DNA of 49,160 bases from Verrucomicrobiota bacterium (GTDB taxonomy: Bacteria > Verrucomicrobiota > Verrucomicrobiia > Limisphaerales > Fontisphaeraceae), in the NCBI GenBank assembly GCA_037139415.1, contig JBAXGN010000034.1, forward strand, positions 1 through 49,160, read 5' to 3'. The notes under the pieces were generated by a model that was given only the letters and a program-made list of their open reading frames with translations, ran no database searches and was not told where the DNA came from. This document shows positions 14,699-18,973 of the stretch, piece by piece. Position 1 is the stretch's first letter, and every line of letters starts with the position of its first letter. A program made the position numbers and the translations under genes.

Positions 14699-14714
14699 TC
14701 AGATCGGACTATGA
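14677..14714 (+). repeat. 38-bp direct repeat, copy 2
   Basis: The segment starts GCGGCGAGTGGCGGTAGC and ends CGGACTATGA. It encodes the last residues of the methyltransferase and includes the wzm start codon. It is 31/38 identical to 13917-13954. A shorter match (CCAGACCATGA, 28175-28185) to copy 1 lies at the start of the exostosin-like gene. Confidence 0.7.
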
Positions 14715-15601
14715 GCGAGAATACTAATTTCAATCCCACGCTGGTGGGTTCCCAATTGAGTGAATCGAGCTGGGACACGATTCTGCGTCCCCGCCACGGC
14801 TGGTTTGAACTACAACTTGGGGAATTATGGCGCTATCGTGACTTGACGATGATGTTTTTCTGGCGCGATTTCGTCGCACAATATAAGCAGACCATCCTCG
14901 GACCGCTGTGGTATTTCATTCAACCACTGTTCACGACGCTGCTTTTTACCGTGGTGTTTGGAAAGGTGGCGAAACTTTCCACCGATAGTCTGCCACCGGT
15001 CTTGTTTTATATGGCTGGCATCACTGGGTGGAACTATTTTTCTGAATGCCTGAACCGCACTTCGGGAACTTTCATCAATAACGCCAATATTTTTGGGAAG
15101 GTGTATTTTCCGCGTTTAGCGGTTCCACTTTCGATCGTCTTCAGTAACCTCGTTAAGTTCGGGATCCAATTTCTGCTGTTTGCCAGTTTCATGGCATACT
15201 ATTGGGTGCAGGGGGCGGCTATTCATCCCAATGCTTTGGTGCTCCTGACCCCGGTCTTGCTGCTGATCATGGCCGCGCTGGGGTTGGGTACTGGCATTAT
15301 TGTTTCGGCGCTGACCGTAAAATATCGGGATTTGCAAATTCTGGTCACCTTTGGAGTGCAACTGGCCATGTATGCTACGCCGGTTATTTATCCACTCTCA
15401 ATCATCGCAGAAAAGTATCGTTGGATCGTGCTGGCAAACCCCATGGCCCCGGTCATTGAAACATTTCGCTACGCGTTTTTAGGGGCGGGAACGTTTAATC
15501 CTATCCATCTACTGATCAGTGCGGTGACTACAGTCATCATTTTATTTGTGGGCATAGTGCTGTTCAACCACGTCGAGCGGACGTTCATGGATACAGTTTA
15601 G
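14711..15601 (+). CDS. Polysaccharide ABC exporter permease (Wzm-like)
   Basis: The membrane subunit of an ABC-2 type polysaccharide exporter, 296 residues with about six hydrophobic helices. The N-terminal cytoplasmic part contains ELWRYRDLTMMFFWRDFVAQYKQT, followed by ILGPLWYFIQPLFTTLLFTVVFG, the classic Wzm/RfbA/KpsM-family opening. The C-terminal NPMAPVIETFRYAFLG segment is also typical. It pairs with the ATPase 17 bases downstream and exports lipid-linked glycan across the inner membrane. Confidence 0.93.
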   Translation: MSENTNFNPTLVGSQLSESSWDTILRPRHGWFELQLGELWRYRDLTMMFFWRDFVAQYKQTILGPLWYFIQPLFTTLLFTVVFGKVAKLSTDSLPPVLFYMAGITGWNYFSECLNRTSGTFINNANIFGKVYFPRLAVPLSIVFSNLVKFGIQFLLFASFMAYYWVQGAAIHPNALVLLTPVLLLIMAALGLGTGIIVSALTVKYRDLQILVTFGVQLAMYATPVIYPLSIIAEKYRWIVLANPMAPVIETFRYAFLGAGTFNPIHLLISAVTTVIILFVGIVLFNHVERTFMDTV

Positions 15602-15618
15602 ACGAAGGACCTTCGGCT

Positions 15619-16953
15619 ATGAGTGATATTGCGATTCAGGTGGACAGTCTGTGGAAAAAATACCGACTCGGTGTAGTTGGAACCGGTACGTTGCGCCACG
15701 ACTTGAACCGCTGGTGGCACCGGGTACGTGGAAAATCGGATCCGTATGCGGCAATCGAACCGGCTGACAACGCCAACGGGACAAGAGCGGGTGGTGATGT
15801 CGCCAGTGGTCTTCAAACCGATGAGATTTGGGCGCTGCGCGATCTTTCCTTTGAAGTCAAGCGCGGTGAAGTGATGGGAATCATTGGGCGCAATGGGGCG
15901 GGAAAAAGTACGCTGCTCAAAATATTTTCACGAGTTACGGCGCCGACCCGGGGAGAAGTACGCATTAAAGGCCGTATCGCGAGTCTGCTGGAGGTGGGAA
16001 CGGGTTTTCATCCGGAACTGACTGGCCGAGAAAATATCTTTTTAAACGGTGTGATTTTGGGGATGACCAAGGCGGAAATCCGGAGCAAGTTCGATGAGAT
16101 TGTGGATTTTGCCGGGGTGGAAAAGTTTATAGATACACCGGTGAAACGCTATTCCAGCGGAATGTGTGTGCGTCTGGCCTTTGCTGTGGCGGCGCATCTC
16201 GACCCCGAAATCCTTTTGATTGATGAAGTCTTGGCTGTGGGCGACCATGCGTTTCAGCAAAAGTGCCTTGGCAAAATGAAACAAGTCTCGCACGATCTTG
16301 GACGGACCGTGTTGTTTGTCAGCCATAACATGGCAGCCTTGCGAGCACTATGCACCCGGTCTTTGTTGCTGACGGGCGGCACGAAGGCTTTTGACGGAGC
16401 GTCGGCAGAGACAATTCAGAGGTATCTGGAAGGCAGTTCAACCGGGGAAACCATCGTGACTTGGAACGCGAATGAGGCGCCGCAAGCGGACGGTTTCGTC
16501 ATGCATTGTGCTTACATTCGAAATGGTGCCGGGAACATTGTCAACACGGTCCACCATGATGAGGGTTTTGATATTTGCGTGGAATATGAATTGAGCAAGC
16601 ACCTTAGCGGGATGCGCATTGGTTTCATGATGCAAACGAACGAAGGGGTGGTGGTGTGTGGGTCAAATGATGTGAACGAGGCAATGGACAATGTTCGCCA
16701 ACCTAATGTCTATGTAAGTGTGTGCCGATTTCCGCCATACGTGTTGAATGAAGGGCAATATCAAATTCAACTTGGTGCCGAAACACCGTTAGGGAGTATG
16801 AGCATCTTAACGCCATTTTGTTTGAGTTTCCAGGTTCAGGATTTGGAACGGCATGGGCACGTTAAAATTAAATTACCGGGTATTGTGCGTCCAAGGTTGG
16901 CATGGAAAGTTGAGACCATCCCTGCTTTAACCACCGGTCGGCGTGAACCCTGA
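15619..16953 (+). CDS. Polysaccharide ABC exporter ATPase with C-terminal glycan-recognition domain (Wzt-like)
   Basis: A 444-residue ATPase powering the Wzm exporter. Walker A GRNGAGKST (90-98), signature YSSGMCVRLAF (178-188), Walker B ILLIDEVLAVGD (198-209) and switch His236 are all present. An unusually long N-terminal insert (about 20-70) precedes the strand before Walker A. Residues ~275-440 form an extra beta-rich domain like the Wzt C-terminal module that binds the terminal modification of the glycan and selects finished chains; this fits the many decorating enzymes in the locus. The ribosome site AAGGA (15605-15609) sits inside a 13-base palindrome, CGAAGG-A-CCTTCG (15603-15615), so translation start may be structure-sensitive. 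Confidence 0.93.
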   Translation: MSDIAIQVDSLWKKYRLGVVGTGTLRHDLNRWWHRVRGKSDPYAAIEPADNANGTRAGGDVASGLQTDEIWALRDLSFEVKRGEVMGIIGRNGAGKSTLLKIFSRVTAPTRGEVRIKGRIASLLEVGTGFHPELTGRENIFLNGVILGMTKAEIRSKFDEIVDFAGVEKFIDTPVKRYSSGMCVRLAFAVAAHLDPEILLIDEVLAVGDHAFQQKCLGKMKQVSHDLGRTVLFVSHNMAALRALCTRSLLLTGGTKAFDGASAETIQRYLEGSSTGETIVTWNANEAPQADGFVMHCAYIRNGAGNIVNTVHHDEGFDICVEYELSKHLSGMRIGFMMQTNEGVVVCGSNDVNEAMDNVRQPNVYVSVCRFPPYVLNEGQYQIQLGAETPLGSMSILTPFCLSFQVQDLERHGHVKIKLPGIVRPRLAWKVETIPALTTGRREP

Positions 16954-16988
16954 CCAAGTGGAGCTGGTTAAAATGAGCAGAGCAAGCC

Positions 16989-17804
16989 ATGTTGCATAGC
17001 ATAAATAATCTATTTTGGAGGGTTTTTCTGGGTTGGGGTGCTTGGCGCCGACGCCTGATATTTCAGATCAAACTGCATTATGCGCCGGAACTGGATATAC
17101 GCGTACCATTAGGGCAAGGGCTTTGCTGTCCTCCTTTTAACGAAGATATTGGAAGTTGTTTTTCTGAAATTTTTCTAGGACGGGAATACGATAATTTGTT
17201 GGAGAAAATGCCCATGCCGCAATGCTGGGTGGACATGGGGTGTCATGCGGGATTTTTTTCCTTGTGGCTGCTCTGGCAGCGTCGTCGTCAAAATGCAAAC
17301 GGCATCTGCGCGGCTTTATTGGTGGACGCTGACCGTCAGCATGAGGCATGGTTAGAGCGGTTGATCCGTATTAACGGATTGGACCAGCAATGGACTTTCC
17401 AACTTGGTGCCATCGCTAATGAGCCTGGTGAATGCGAATTCGTGGAACGTGGCTACATGGCTTCTTCGCTTAAGGCGATTGATGGGCAGATCGGTACGGT
17501 GGCAAGAGTAAAAGTACTGACGGCCATCGAGATTGCGCGGAAGTTTCCTGGACCGTATGATTTGATAAAACTGGATGTGGAGGGTGCTGAGTATGAGTTT
17601 CTGTCGAGCTATTCCGACTTGACTCGGCAGGCGCGGTACTTGCTGGTGGAATGGCATTCCTGGCATCGCGGGGGGGGGGGGCAACGTCAAATCCAGACCA
17701 TGGCAGATCAGCAGGGCTTCGCGTTGGTATCTGAAATCCAACCGGCACGAGGTGTGAAACAGGGCCAAACAGGTGTCATTTTATATAAGAATTTGCGGTT
17801 TTAA
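16989..17804 (+). CDS. FkbM-type methyltransferase containing a G12 tract
   Basis: A 271-residue putative O-methyltransferase for a glycan residue. Motif I is CWVDMGCHAGFFSLWLL, and YDLIKLDVEGAEYEFL later matches the FkbM hallmark IKLDVEGxE. Near the C-terminus, codons 228-231 are four consecutive GGG glycines, part of a run of 12 G at 17670-17681. Loss or gain of one G would shift the frame and end the protein within about 30 codons, removing the last ~40 residues. An ATG at 16973 opens a nine-codon frame overlapping the start and could act as an upstream ORF. No clear ribosome site is visible before 16989. Confidence 0.82.
   Translation: MLHSINNLFWRVFLGWGAWRRRLIFQIKLHYAPELDIRVPLGQGLCCPPFNEDIGSCFSEIFLGREYDNLLEKMPMPQCWVDMGCHAGFFSLWLLWQRRRQNANGICAALLVDADRQHEAWLERLIRINGLDQQWTFQLGAIANEPGECEFVERGYMASSLKAIDGQIGTVARVKVLTAIEIARKFPGPYDLIKLDVEGAEYEFLSSYSDLTRQARYLLVEWHSWHRGGGGQRQIQTMADQQGFALVSEIQPARGVKQGQTGVILYKNLRF
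17670..17681 (+). repeat. Homopolymer of 12 G inside a methyltransferase gene
   Basis: Twelve consecutive G follow CGC and precede CAACG. In the present state they are read as four Gly codons and keep the frame open. It is the longest mononucleotide run I see in the window. Runs of this length are prone to slipped-strand mispairing and, in surface-glycan genes, often act as on/off switches. Confidence 0.85.
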
Positions 17805-17926
17805 TTCTGGAATGCATAATCGCCGCAAGGGGCGACAAATAGTCACTGCGCAATGGCGACAACGGCAACAGTTACTAAGACGTACTGCATATATTGGTCA
17901 TTATCCAAGTCAAATGTCATTGATTT
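17805..17926 (+). other. Intergenic gap with a short GC hairpin
   Basis: One of the few gaps over 100 bases inside the polysaccharide locus. TCGCC pairs with GGCGA around GCAAG at about 17819-17833, and the following GCAATGGCGACAACGGCAACA is loosely similar to the locus leader repeat. No promoter boxes are convincing. It may hold an internal promoter for the following glycosyltransferase genes. Confidence 0.35.
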
Positions 17927-18973
17927 ATGCATGTGATTAACCTTGAAAAATGGGCCATTGTGGCGCCTAACAATGAGACCGGGGTGGGCAGAATGACCCA
18001 AGATCTTCGCCGTCTCTTGGATCCCATTCGGGTCTTGGTCGCTCCGAACAGACGTCTCAAATCCAATCCGCTTTCAGGACGCGACGCGATGCTGGTCTGG
18101 GAGCAGGGTGGGGAAGTGTTGCAAAGCCAGTTGGCCGGACTTCATGGAATTATCCTATTTGAAGATAGTGAGTACGCGCATAAGACCATTGAAGCAGCCA
18201 GTTCCATGGGGATCAAAGTGGTCATGTTTGTGCTTTGGGAATGGTTTCGGTATTATGCGAAGATCTGGCAAAGCTGCGATGTGTTTGTATGCAATACAGG
18301 CTTCAGTGCGCAATTGATGCGCAAATTTGGCTTTCGTAACACGGTTCAATTGACGTGGCCTGTGGATGTGGCTTCCCTGCCTAATCGCATTCGATCAGGC
18401 CCAGCTCGAGTGTTTGTGCATAATGCAGGACTATTTGAGAAGGATGATCGCAAAGCAACCGTGGAAACGTTGGAAGCATTTTCATTGGTGCGCAAGCCTG
18501 AGATACAATTGATTGTAAGAGTACAAAATGAACTCACAGTGTCTATTAACGATTCGCGTATCCAGATCAAGCGAGGTAATCTCGCAGATTTCCGGGATTT
18601 ATACAAAGAAGGCGATGTTGCGGTACATCCCTCCAAGTGCGAAGGACTGGGGTTCGCACTGTTGGAGGCGATGGCAAGTGGAATGCCGTTAATTACGACT
18701 GATTACCCCCCAATGAACGAATATGTGACTCGTAAGTCCATGTTGGTGGCCACCAAGTGGGGAAAATATCCGGCGGAACAAACTCAATATATTCCTCAGG
18801 CTCATTTCAAACTTCCCAAAGTGAAGGATCTGGCCAGTAAAATCAGTTGGTGTGCCGAGAACGACATGGGTGCCATCAGTCGGGAAAATCGCGCTTGGGC
18901 GGAACAGGTTTTTGCCCCGGCTCGCTTGCGCGAGCAATGGCTGACCCAACTCTGCCAGATCGAGGGCGCTTAG
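17927..18973 (+). CDS. Glycosyltransferase, GT4-like
   Basis: A 348-residue retaining GT-B glycosyltransferase candidate, cytoplasmic or membrane-associated. The N-terminal domain is divergent and starts INLEKWAIVAPNNETGVGRM, with the glycine-containing acceptor-side loop typical of GT4. The C-terminal donor domain has VAVHPSKCEGLGFALLEAMASGMPLITTDYPPMNEYV, i.e. the E-x7-E motif (EGLGFALLE) that contacts the nucleotide-sugar. Donor and acceptor sugars cannot be read from the sequence. It follows a 122-base gap and precedes the CgeB-like gene by 25 bases. Confidence 0.85.
   Translation: MHVINLEKWAIVAPNNETGVGRMTQDLRRLLDPIRVLVAPNRRLKSNPLSGRDAMLVWEQGGEVLQSQLAGLHGIILFEDSEYAHKTIEAASSMGIKVVMFVLWEWFRYYAKIWQSCDVFVCNTGFSAQLMRKFGFRNTVQLTWPVDVASLPNRIRSGPARVFVHNAGLFEKDDRKATVETLEAFSLVRKPEIQLIVRVQNELTVSINDSRIQIKRGNLADFRDLYKEGDVAVHPSKCEGLGFALLEAMASGMPLITTDYPPMNEYVTRKSMLVATKWGKYPAEQTQYIPQAHFKLPKVKDLASKISWCAENDMGAISRENRAWAEQVFAPARLREQWLTQLCQIEGA

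Follow-up and report, generated by a model that had tools for sequence, protein, structure and literature searches.

Gene content of the locus

The window, that is, the whole stretch of 49,160 nucleotides analysed here, comes from a draft genome of 7.9 Mb in 378 contigs, which is 98% complete. Out of 14 named genomes used for comparison, those nearest to it by UvrA are members of Kiritimatiellales, Planctomycetota, and Verrucomicrobia, a result that fits a placement in Verrucomicrobiota but does not prove it. Four adjoining genes of the window form a glycan-export module:

14711..15601, forward strand: Wzm-type ABC-2 polysaccharide export permease (PF01061), conserved beside fkbM in the relatives G034 and G444
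15619..16953, forward strand: Wzt-type ATPase (PF00005) with a Wzt C-terminal domain (PF14524, 41.6 bits), conserved in the same two relatives
16989..17804, forward strand: FkbM-family methyltransferase of 271 aa (TIGR01444, PF05050) with a class I methyltransferase fold; the frame is open at the present tract length
17927..18973, forward strand: group 1 glycosyltransferase of the module (PF13692), 42% identical in G034 and 39% in G444

The Wzm and Wzt homologs lie 5' of fkbM, and a long series of glycosyltransferases follows 3' of it. With polysaccharide export genes and glycosyltransferases adjoining fkbM on its two sides, the description of the region as a surface-glycan locus in the first-pass annotation, which was made from the letters alone, is borne out. 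The presumed substrate is an exported surface sugar chain, which the FkbM product probably methylates.

The order wzm-wzt-fkbM-glycosyltransferase recurs in G034, which belongs to another family of the same order, and G444, a member of the same class, has the order wzm-fkbM-wzt-glycosyltransferase. Three families within a single class keep the module (14711-18973 in the window; L148; L214), in which fkbM may precede or follow wzt. Besides the copies in G034 and G444, no comparable module was found when 320 genomes of the order and samples of several hundred genomes of the class and phylum were covered, nor was the association of FkbM with Wzt found in more distant homologs. The viral contigs that were searched yielded no relative and no exact match to the flanks of the G tract described below.

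The FkbM methyltransferase

Assignment of the 271-aa product to the FkbM type, as first proposed, stands: in the profile search both models exceed their curated cut-offs, TIGR01444 with 51.3 bits (cut-off 37.7) and PF05050 with 28.5 bits (cut-off 22.7). Among 35 relatives, no variation is seen at residues G84, D196, E198, G199, E201, E221, and H223, and hardly any at K194. The AlphaFold2 model (mean pLDDT 86) has the class I methyltransferase fold, the solved structures that match it by fold are SAM methyltransferases, and the best solved structure by sequence is the FkbM protein 2py6.

The window protein thus has its domain, conserved residues, and fold in common with the FkbM family (TIGR01444; solved member 2py6), but differs in that its C-terminal loop of four glycines is coded by a homopolymer of 12 G. 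In the model, this loop falls between a strand (residues 215-223) and a helix (232-241), which is followed by two further strands (244-250 and 261-268).

The G tract and the reading frame

The features of the tract and its surroundings are as follows:

17670..17681, forward strand: homopolymer of 12 G (G12), counted in the sequence and read as GGG GGG GGG GGG, which codes for Gly228-Gly231
17682..17801, forward strand: codons 232-271, which a -1 or +1 slip removes and which form the last helix and the final two strands in the model (frame computation and structure model)
17732..17734, forward strand: TGA reached after the gain of one G (13 G), with a product of 248 aa (frame computation)
17755..17757, forward strand: TGA reached after the loss of one G (11 G), with a product of 255 aa (frame computation)

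The tract is flanked by the codons CGC and CAA. Its count of 12 G and its position in codons 228-231 agree exactly with the first reading of the sequence, which had also noted that the present length keeps the frame open (ORF 16989-17804, forward strand). That reading had placed the stop after loss of one G near 17757, had expected an earlier TGA after gain of one G, and had estimated that either slip would cost about 40 C-terminal residues; the computed stops and the computed loss of the C-terminal 40 residues match on all three points. The frame is preserved with 9 G or 15 G. Because a slip deprives the modelled fold of its final helix and of two core strands, inactivation of the enzyme is likely, and on the same structural grounds the truncated products, whether of 248 or 255 aa, are likely to be inactive.

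The tract in the other copies of the module

The G12 tract is absent from both other copies of the module. In G034 the loop reads WHSWHGGGGGL, with its glycines coded GGC GGC GGC GGC GGG, and in G444 it reads WHSWNGFASDGD and has no glycine run. The loop region is gap-free in the alignment of all three copies, the loop of the window is as long as those of the relatives, and the segment equivalent to the C-terminus of the window protein is recognisable in both G034 and G444.

Homologs with GGx codons of other composition and no change in length had been named beforehand as an observation that would count against a switch. This is what one sees in part, since the nearer relative, G034, has the same glycine loop at equal length and codes it mostly with GGC. 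As G034 shares the glycine loop, with five glycines coded mostly by GGC, a constraint of the protein explains the glycines at least in part; and because the homopolymer is not shared while the loop length is equal, the case for a tract built as a switch is weakened. A tract restricted to one lineage would still be compatible with a switch, such tracts often being confined in this way.

Rarity of long G/C runs in the genome

Inside the window, the second-longest G/C run has 8 bases. The whole genome holds 41 G/C runs of at least 9 (26 of 9, 13 of 10, one of 12, which is the fkbM tract, and one of 15), and the G12 is therefore one of two G/C runs of at least 11 in 7.9 Mb. A/T runs of at least 9 number only 15, and the longest has 10 bases. 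This rules out a general tendency toward homopolymers as the cause of the long tracts and makes the long tail specific to G/C.

In an 800-kb sample of the genome, the number of runs drops about five-fold with each extra base, and extrapolation from the shorter runs gives an expectation of about 0.04-0.2 G/C runs of at least 12 genome-wide. The surplus over expectation already begins at 9-10 bases, so the G12 marks the far end of a general tail rather than an isolated outlier. It is unusual, but it was chosen after the fact as an extreme.

Other genes with long runs

A run of nine G on contig C10 of the same genome (C10:7778-7786; L038:1603-3229) splits an exosortase gene, with PF09721 matched over 2-95 in one frame and over 98-253 (E 2.7e-31) in the next, and with the change of frame exactly at the run. 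The split gene, whose C-terminus is of the XrtU type, may be in an OFF state, may be a pseudogene, or may reflect an assembly error. A second exosortase (L049:1472-2524, contig C46) has an in-frame G9 in a Gly-Gly motif, whose position in the protein, judged by eye, roughly matches that of the tract in the split gene, and a second FkbM methyltransferase gene (L052:2238-3164, contig C60) has nine C in its coding strand.

Runs of at least 9 are thus present in two of the five exosortase genes and two of the 11 FkbM genes of the genome. The binomial estimate for such counts arising by chance is about 1e-4 for the exosortases and 5e-4 for the FkbM genes, the families having been picked after the fact and the input (~20 tract-bearing genes among ~6500 genes) relying on estimated gene totals. 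Both families are glycine-rich at the tract sites.

Runs of 9-15 also occur in genes that have no evident connection with the surface and encode ROK, CheW, ABC-F ATPase, response regulator, and histidine kinase proteins. The run of 15 G (L071:2001-2015, contig C256) belongs to a histidine kinase of 493 aa and is situated near codon 476, where a slip alters the last residues only; a KaiC-like gene starts after the stop codon of this kinase. In-frame tracts of ten G are found in the genes of a two-partner-secretion-domain protein (L050, contig C48) and a PMT/TPR membrane protein (L048, contig C38).

In the relative G012, from the same order, an Acyl_transf_3 gene (L121:615-1782) is split exactly at a run of 11 C, with the profile matched over 3-61 and 68-321. 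Assembly error could produce the same picture of a split gene both here and in the exosortase.

Long runs in the relatives should be read with care. Several of their long poly-G runs are located at the end of a contig or next to a housekeeping gene that is interrupted, and the poly-G at contig ends in L118, L119, L136, and other loci, which reaches 78 bases, is probably a sequencing artefact. Counts of long poly-G runs were compared across the relatives but dropped as evidence because several of the runs are at contig ends. Further candidates for split genes were rejected: in some, a well-supported gene occupies the other strand, in L142 a truncated nuoK is joined with a frame that is not recognised, and in L145 the tract is near the end of a kinase and the continuation is not recognisable.

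Explanations for the tract

The most probable explanation, to which we give a probability of roughly 0.55, is that the G12 is a slippage site in a functional, probably switchable fkbM gene of an exported glycan. Replication slippage, which we infer to take place here at appreciable frequency, would act on the tract inside a gene whose enzyme would decorate the glycan exported by the adjoining Wzm and Wzt, and the assembled length of 12 G would be the ON state. A slip by any number of bases not divisible by three would give a truncated and presumably inactive protein that lacks this C-terminal part of the fold, whereas reverse slips would restore full-length FkbM. The cell population would then be a mixture with and without the glycan modification, as is the case in simple-sequence contingency loci. 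We count the split exosortase, the runs in the two families, and the split acyltransferase of G012 against pure coincidence; the runs in non-surface genes, the lack of the tract in the modules of both relatives, and the possible assembly errors count against a switch.

A quite possible alternative, which ranks below the switch, is that the homopolymer is incidental: a favoured glycine loop happens to use four GGG codons and may be somewhat mutable, with out-of-frame cells being purged and nothing being switched. The five glycines at the same place in G034 (four GGC and one GGG) and the gap-free loop in the three module copies fit this explanation, as do the long G runs in genes without a surface role. 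With 217 runs of at least four glycines per genome and GGG making up 20% of glycine codons, 0.37 cases of four consecutive GGG would be expected per genome without avoidance. GGG-GGG pairs, however, occur at about half their expectation (30 observed versus 66 expected, an approximately two-fold avoidance), and with this applied the expected number of all-GGG quartets falls to ~0.03 (0.035) per genome; the tracts in two of five exosortases and two of 11 FkbM genes also argue against an incidental origin. It is very unlikely that the tract is an artefact of assembly or sequencing, with a true length that is not 12 or was not resolved. The draft state of the genome (378 contigs) and the poly-G errors visible in relatives, such as the 78-G run at a contig end, lend this some weight, but the flanks of this internal tract are unique, and its assembled length coincides with an open frame and with a loop that is gap-free against two relatives.

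A further proposal concerns the role of the enzyme. The first-pass annotation had suggested that the Wzt C-terminal domain may read the methyl state and that switching could thereby change chain termination; in its full form, the G12 would switch export of the whole glycan, with FkbM making a terminal methyl mark that this domain requires. In ABC-exported O antigens, the end group is read by the carbohydrate-binding domain of Wzt, and the terminators combine a methyltransferase, a kinase, and a coiled-coil ruler or are a Kdo-dependent transferase (PMC11231755). The window resembles the WbdD-type methyl terminators (PMC3482155, PMC11231755) in having a methyltransferase beside Wzm and a Wzt with the C-terminal domain (PF14524, at the score given above), and fkbM adjoins wzm/wzt in three genomes. 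It differs from them in that the protein belongs to the FkbM family and consists, at 271 aa, of a methyltransferase domain only, the profile search and structure model revealing no kinase domain and no coiled-coil beyond an N-terminal helix (residues 2-31). A decorating methyltransferase is therefore more likely than a terminator, and going without a required terminator reportedly carries a cost (PMC11231755). We consider an export switch highly improbable; a link between FkbM and Wzt-read chain termination is speculative, and the earlier suggestion is not supported.

Relation to known phase-variable loci

Host-adapted pathogens are the best-known setting of phase variation through slippage in G tracts, and poly-G phase-variation loci are established in surface-glycan genes of Campylobacter, Helicobacter, and Neisseria. 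The fkbM tract is like the contingency loci of these genera (for a Neisseria survey, see PMC5084427) in tract length, in-frame location, and glycan function. In those genera, however, there are many loci and variation has been shown in reads and strains, whereas the window offers one long tract in one assembly. With 12 G, the tract falls in the range of homopolymers known to slip (9 G or more), and a G9 slips in Akkermansia. An indel of one unit disrupts the gene (stops at 17732 and 17755), with a predicted loss of activity. Conservation of the tract in orthologs, which is common but not obligatory for contingency loci, is not seen in G034 and G444.

Contrary to the first impression that no case had been described in Verrucomicrobiota, a precedent exists. 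In 2011, van Passel et al. listed long tracts in Akkermansia muciniphila and suggested phase variation; among the genes listed are two for the capsule, Amuc_1413 with a G tract and the acyltransferase gene Amuc_2098 with ten C (PMC3048395). A 2026 study then reported that Amuc_1413 had changed from G9 to G10 and that mucin binding was lost with this change, and it described mixed reads as well as alleles of 8, 9, and 10 G among published genomes (PMC13055324). Amuc_1413, a Wzc/Wzz-like exopolysaccharide gene, and fkbM are alike in that both are polysaccharide genes of Verrucomicrobiota with a poly-G tract, where a one-base frameshift leads to a premature stop. They differ in that the Akkermansia tract is a G9 situated early in a different gene, the product being shortened from 735 to 98 aa, and in that length variation and a phenotype were observed there (PMC13055324). 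The fkbM G12 is thus a candidate case of an already known phenomenon, poly-G phase variation in polysaccharide genes of Verrucomicrobiota. An incomplete search of the open literature found no report of a phase-variable FkbM gene in an ABC-transporter glycan locus.

If the tract varies, the Akkermansia finding would be extended to another lineage of Verrucomicrobiota and to a glycan methyltransferase of an ABC-transporter locus. Seen together with the G/C tracts that split the exosortase and acyltransferase genes, such variation would point to random switching as a common trait of envelope glycans in these bacteria. A bolder and, in our estimate, unlikely proposition is that long G tracts serve the lineage as random switches, each independent of the others, for the control of its exported-glycan and exosortase machinery, in a multi-locus repertoire that would comprise the FkbM gene of the window, the second FkbM gene, the two exosortases, and the two-partner-secretion protein; the literature searched held no report of multi-locus phase variation in this order of bacteria. 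Acyltransferase genes with C tracts are found both in G012 (11 C, split) and in Akkermansia (Amuc_2098, ten C).
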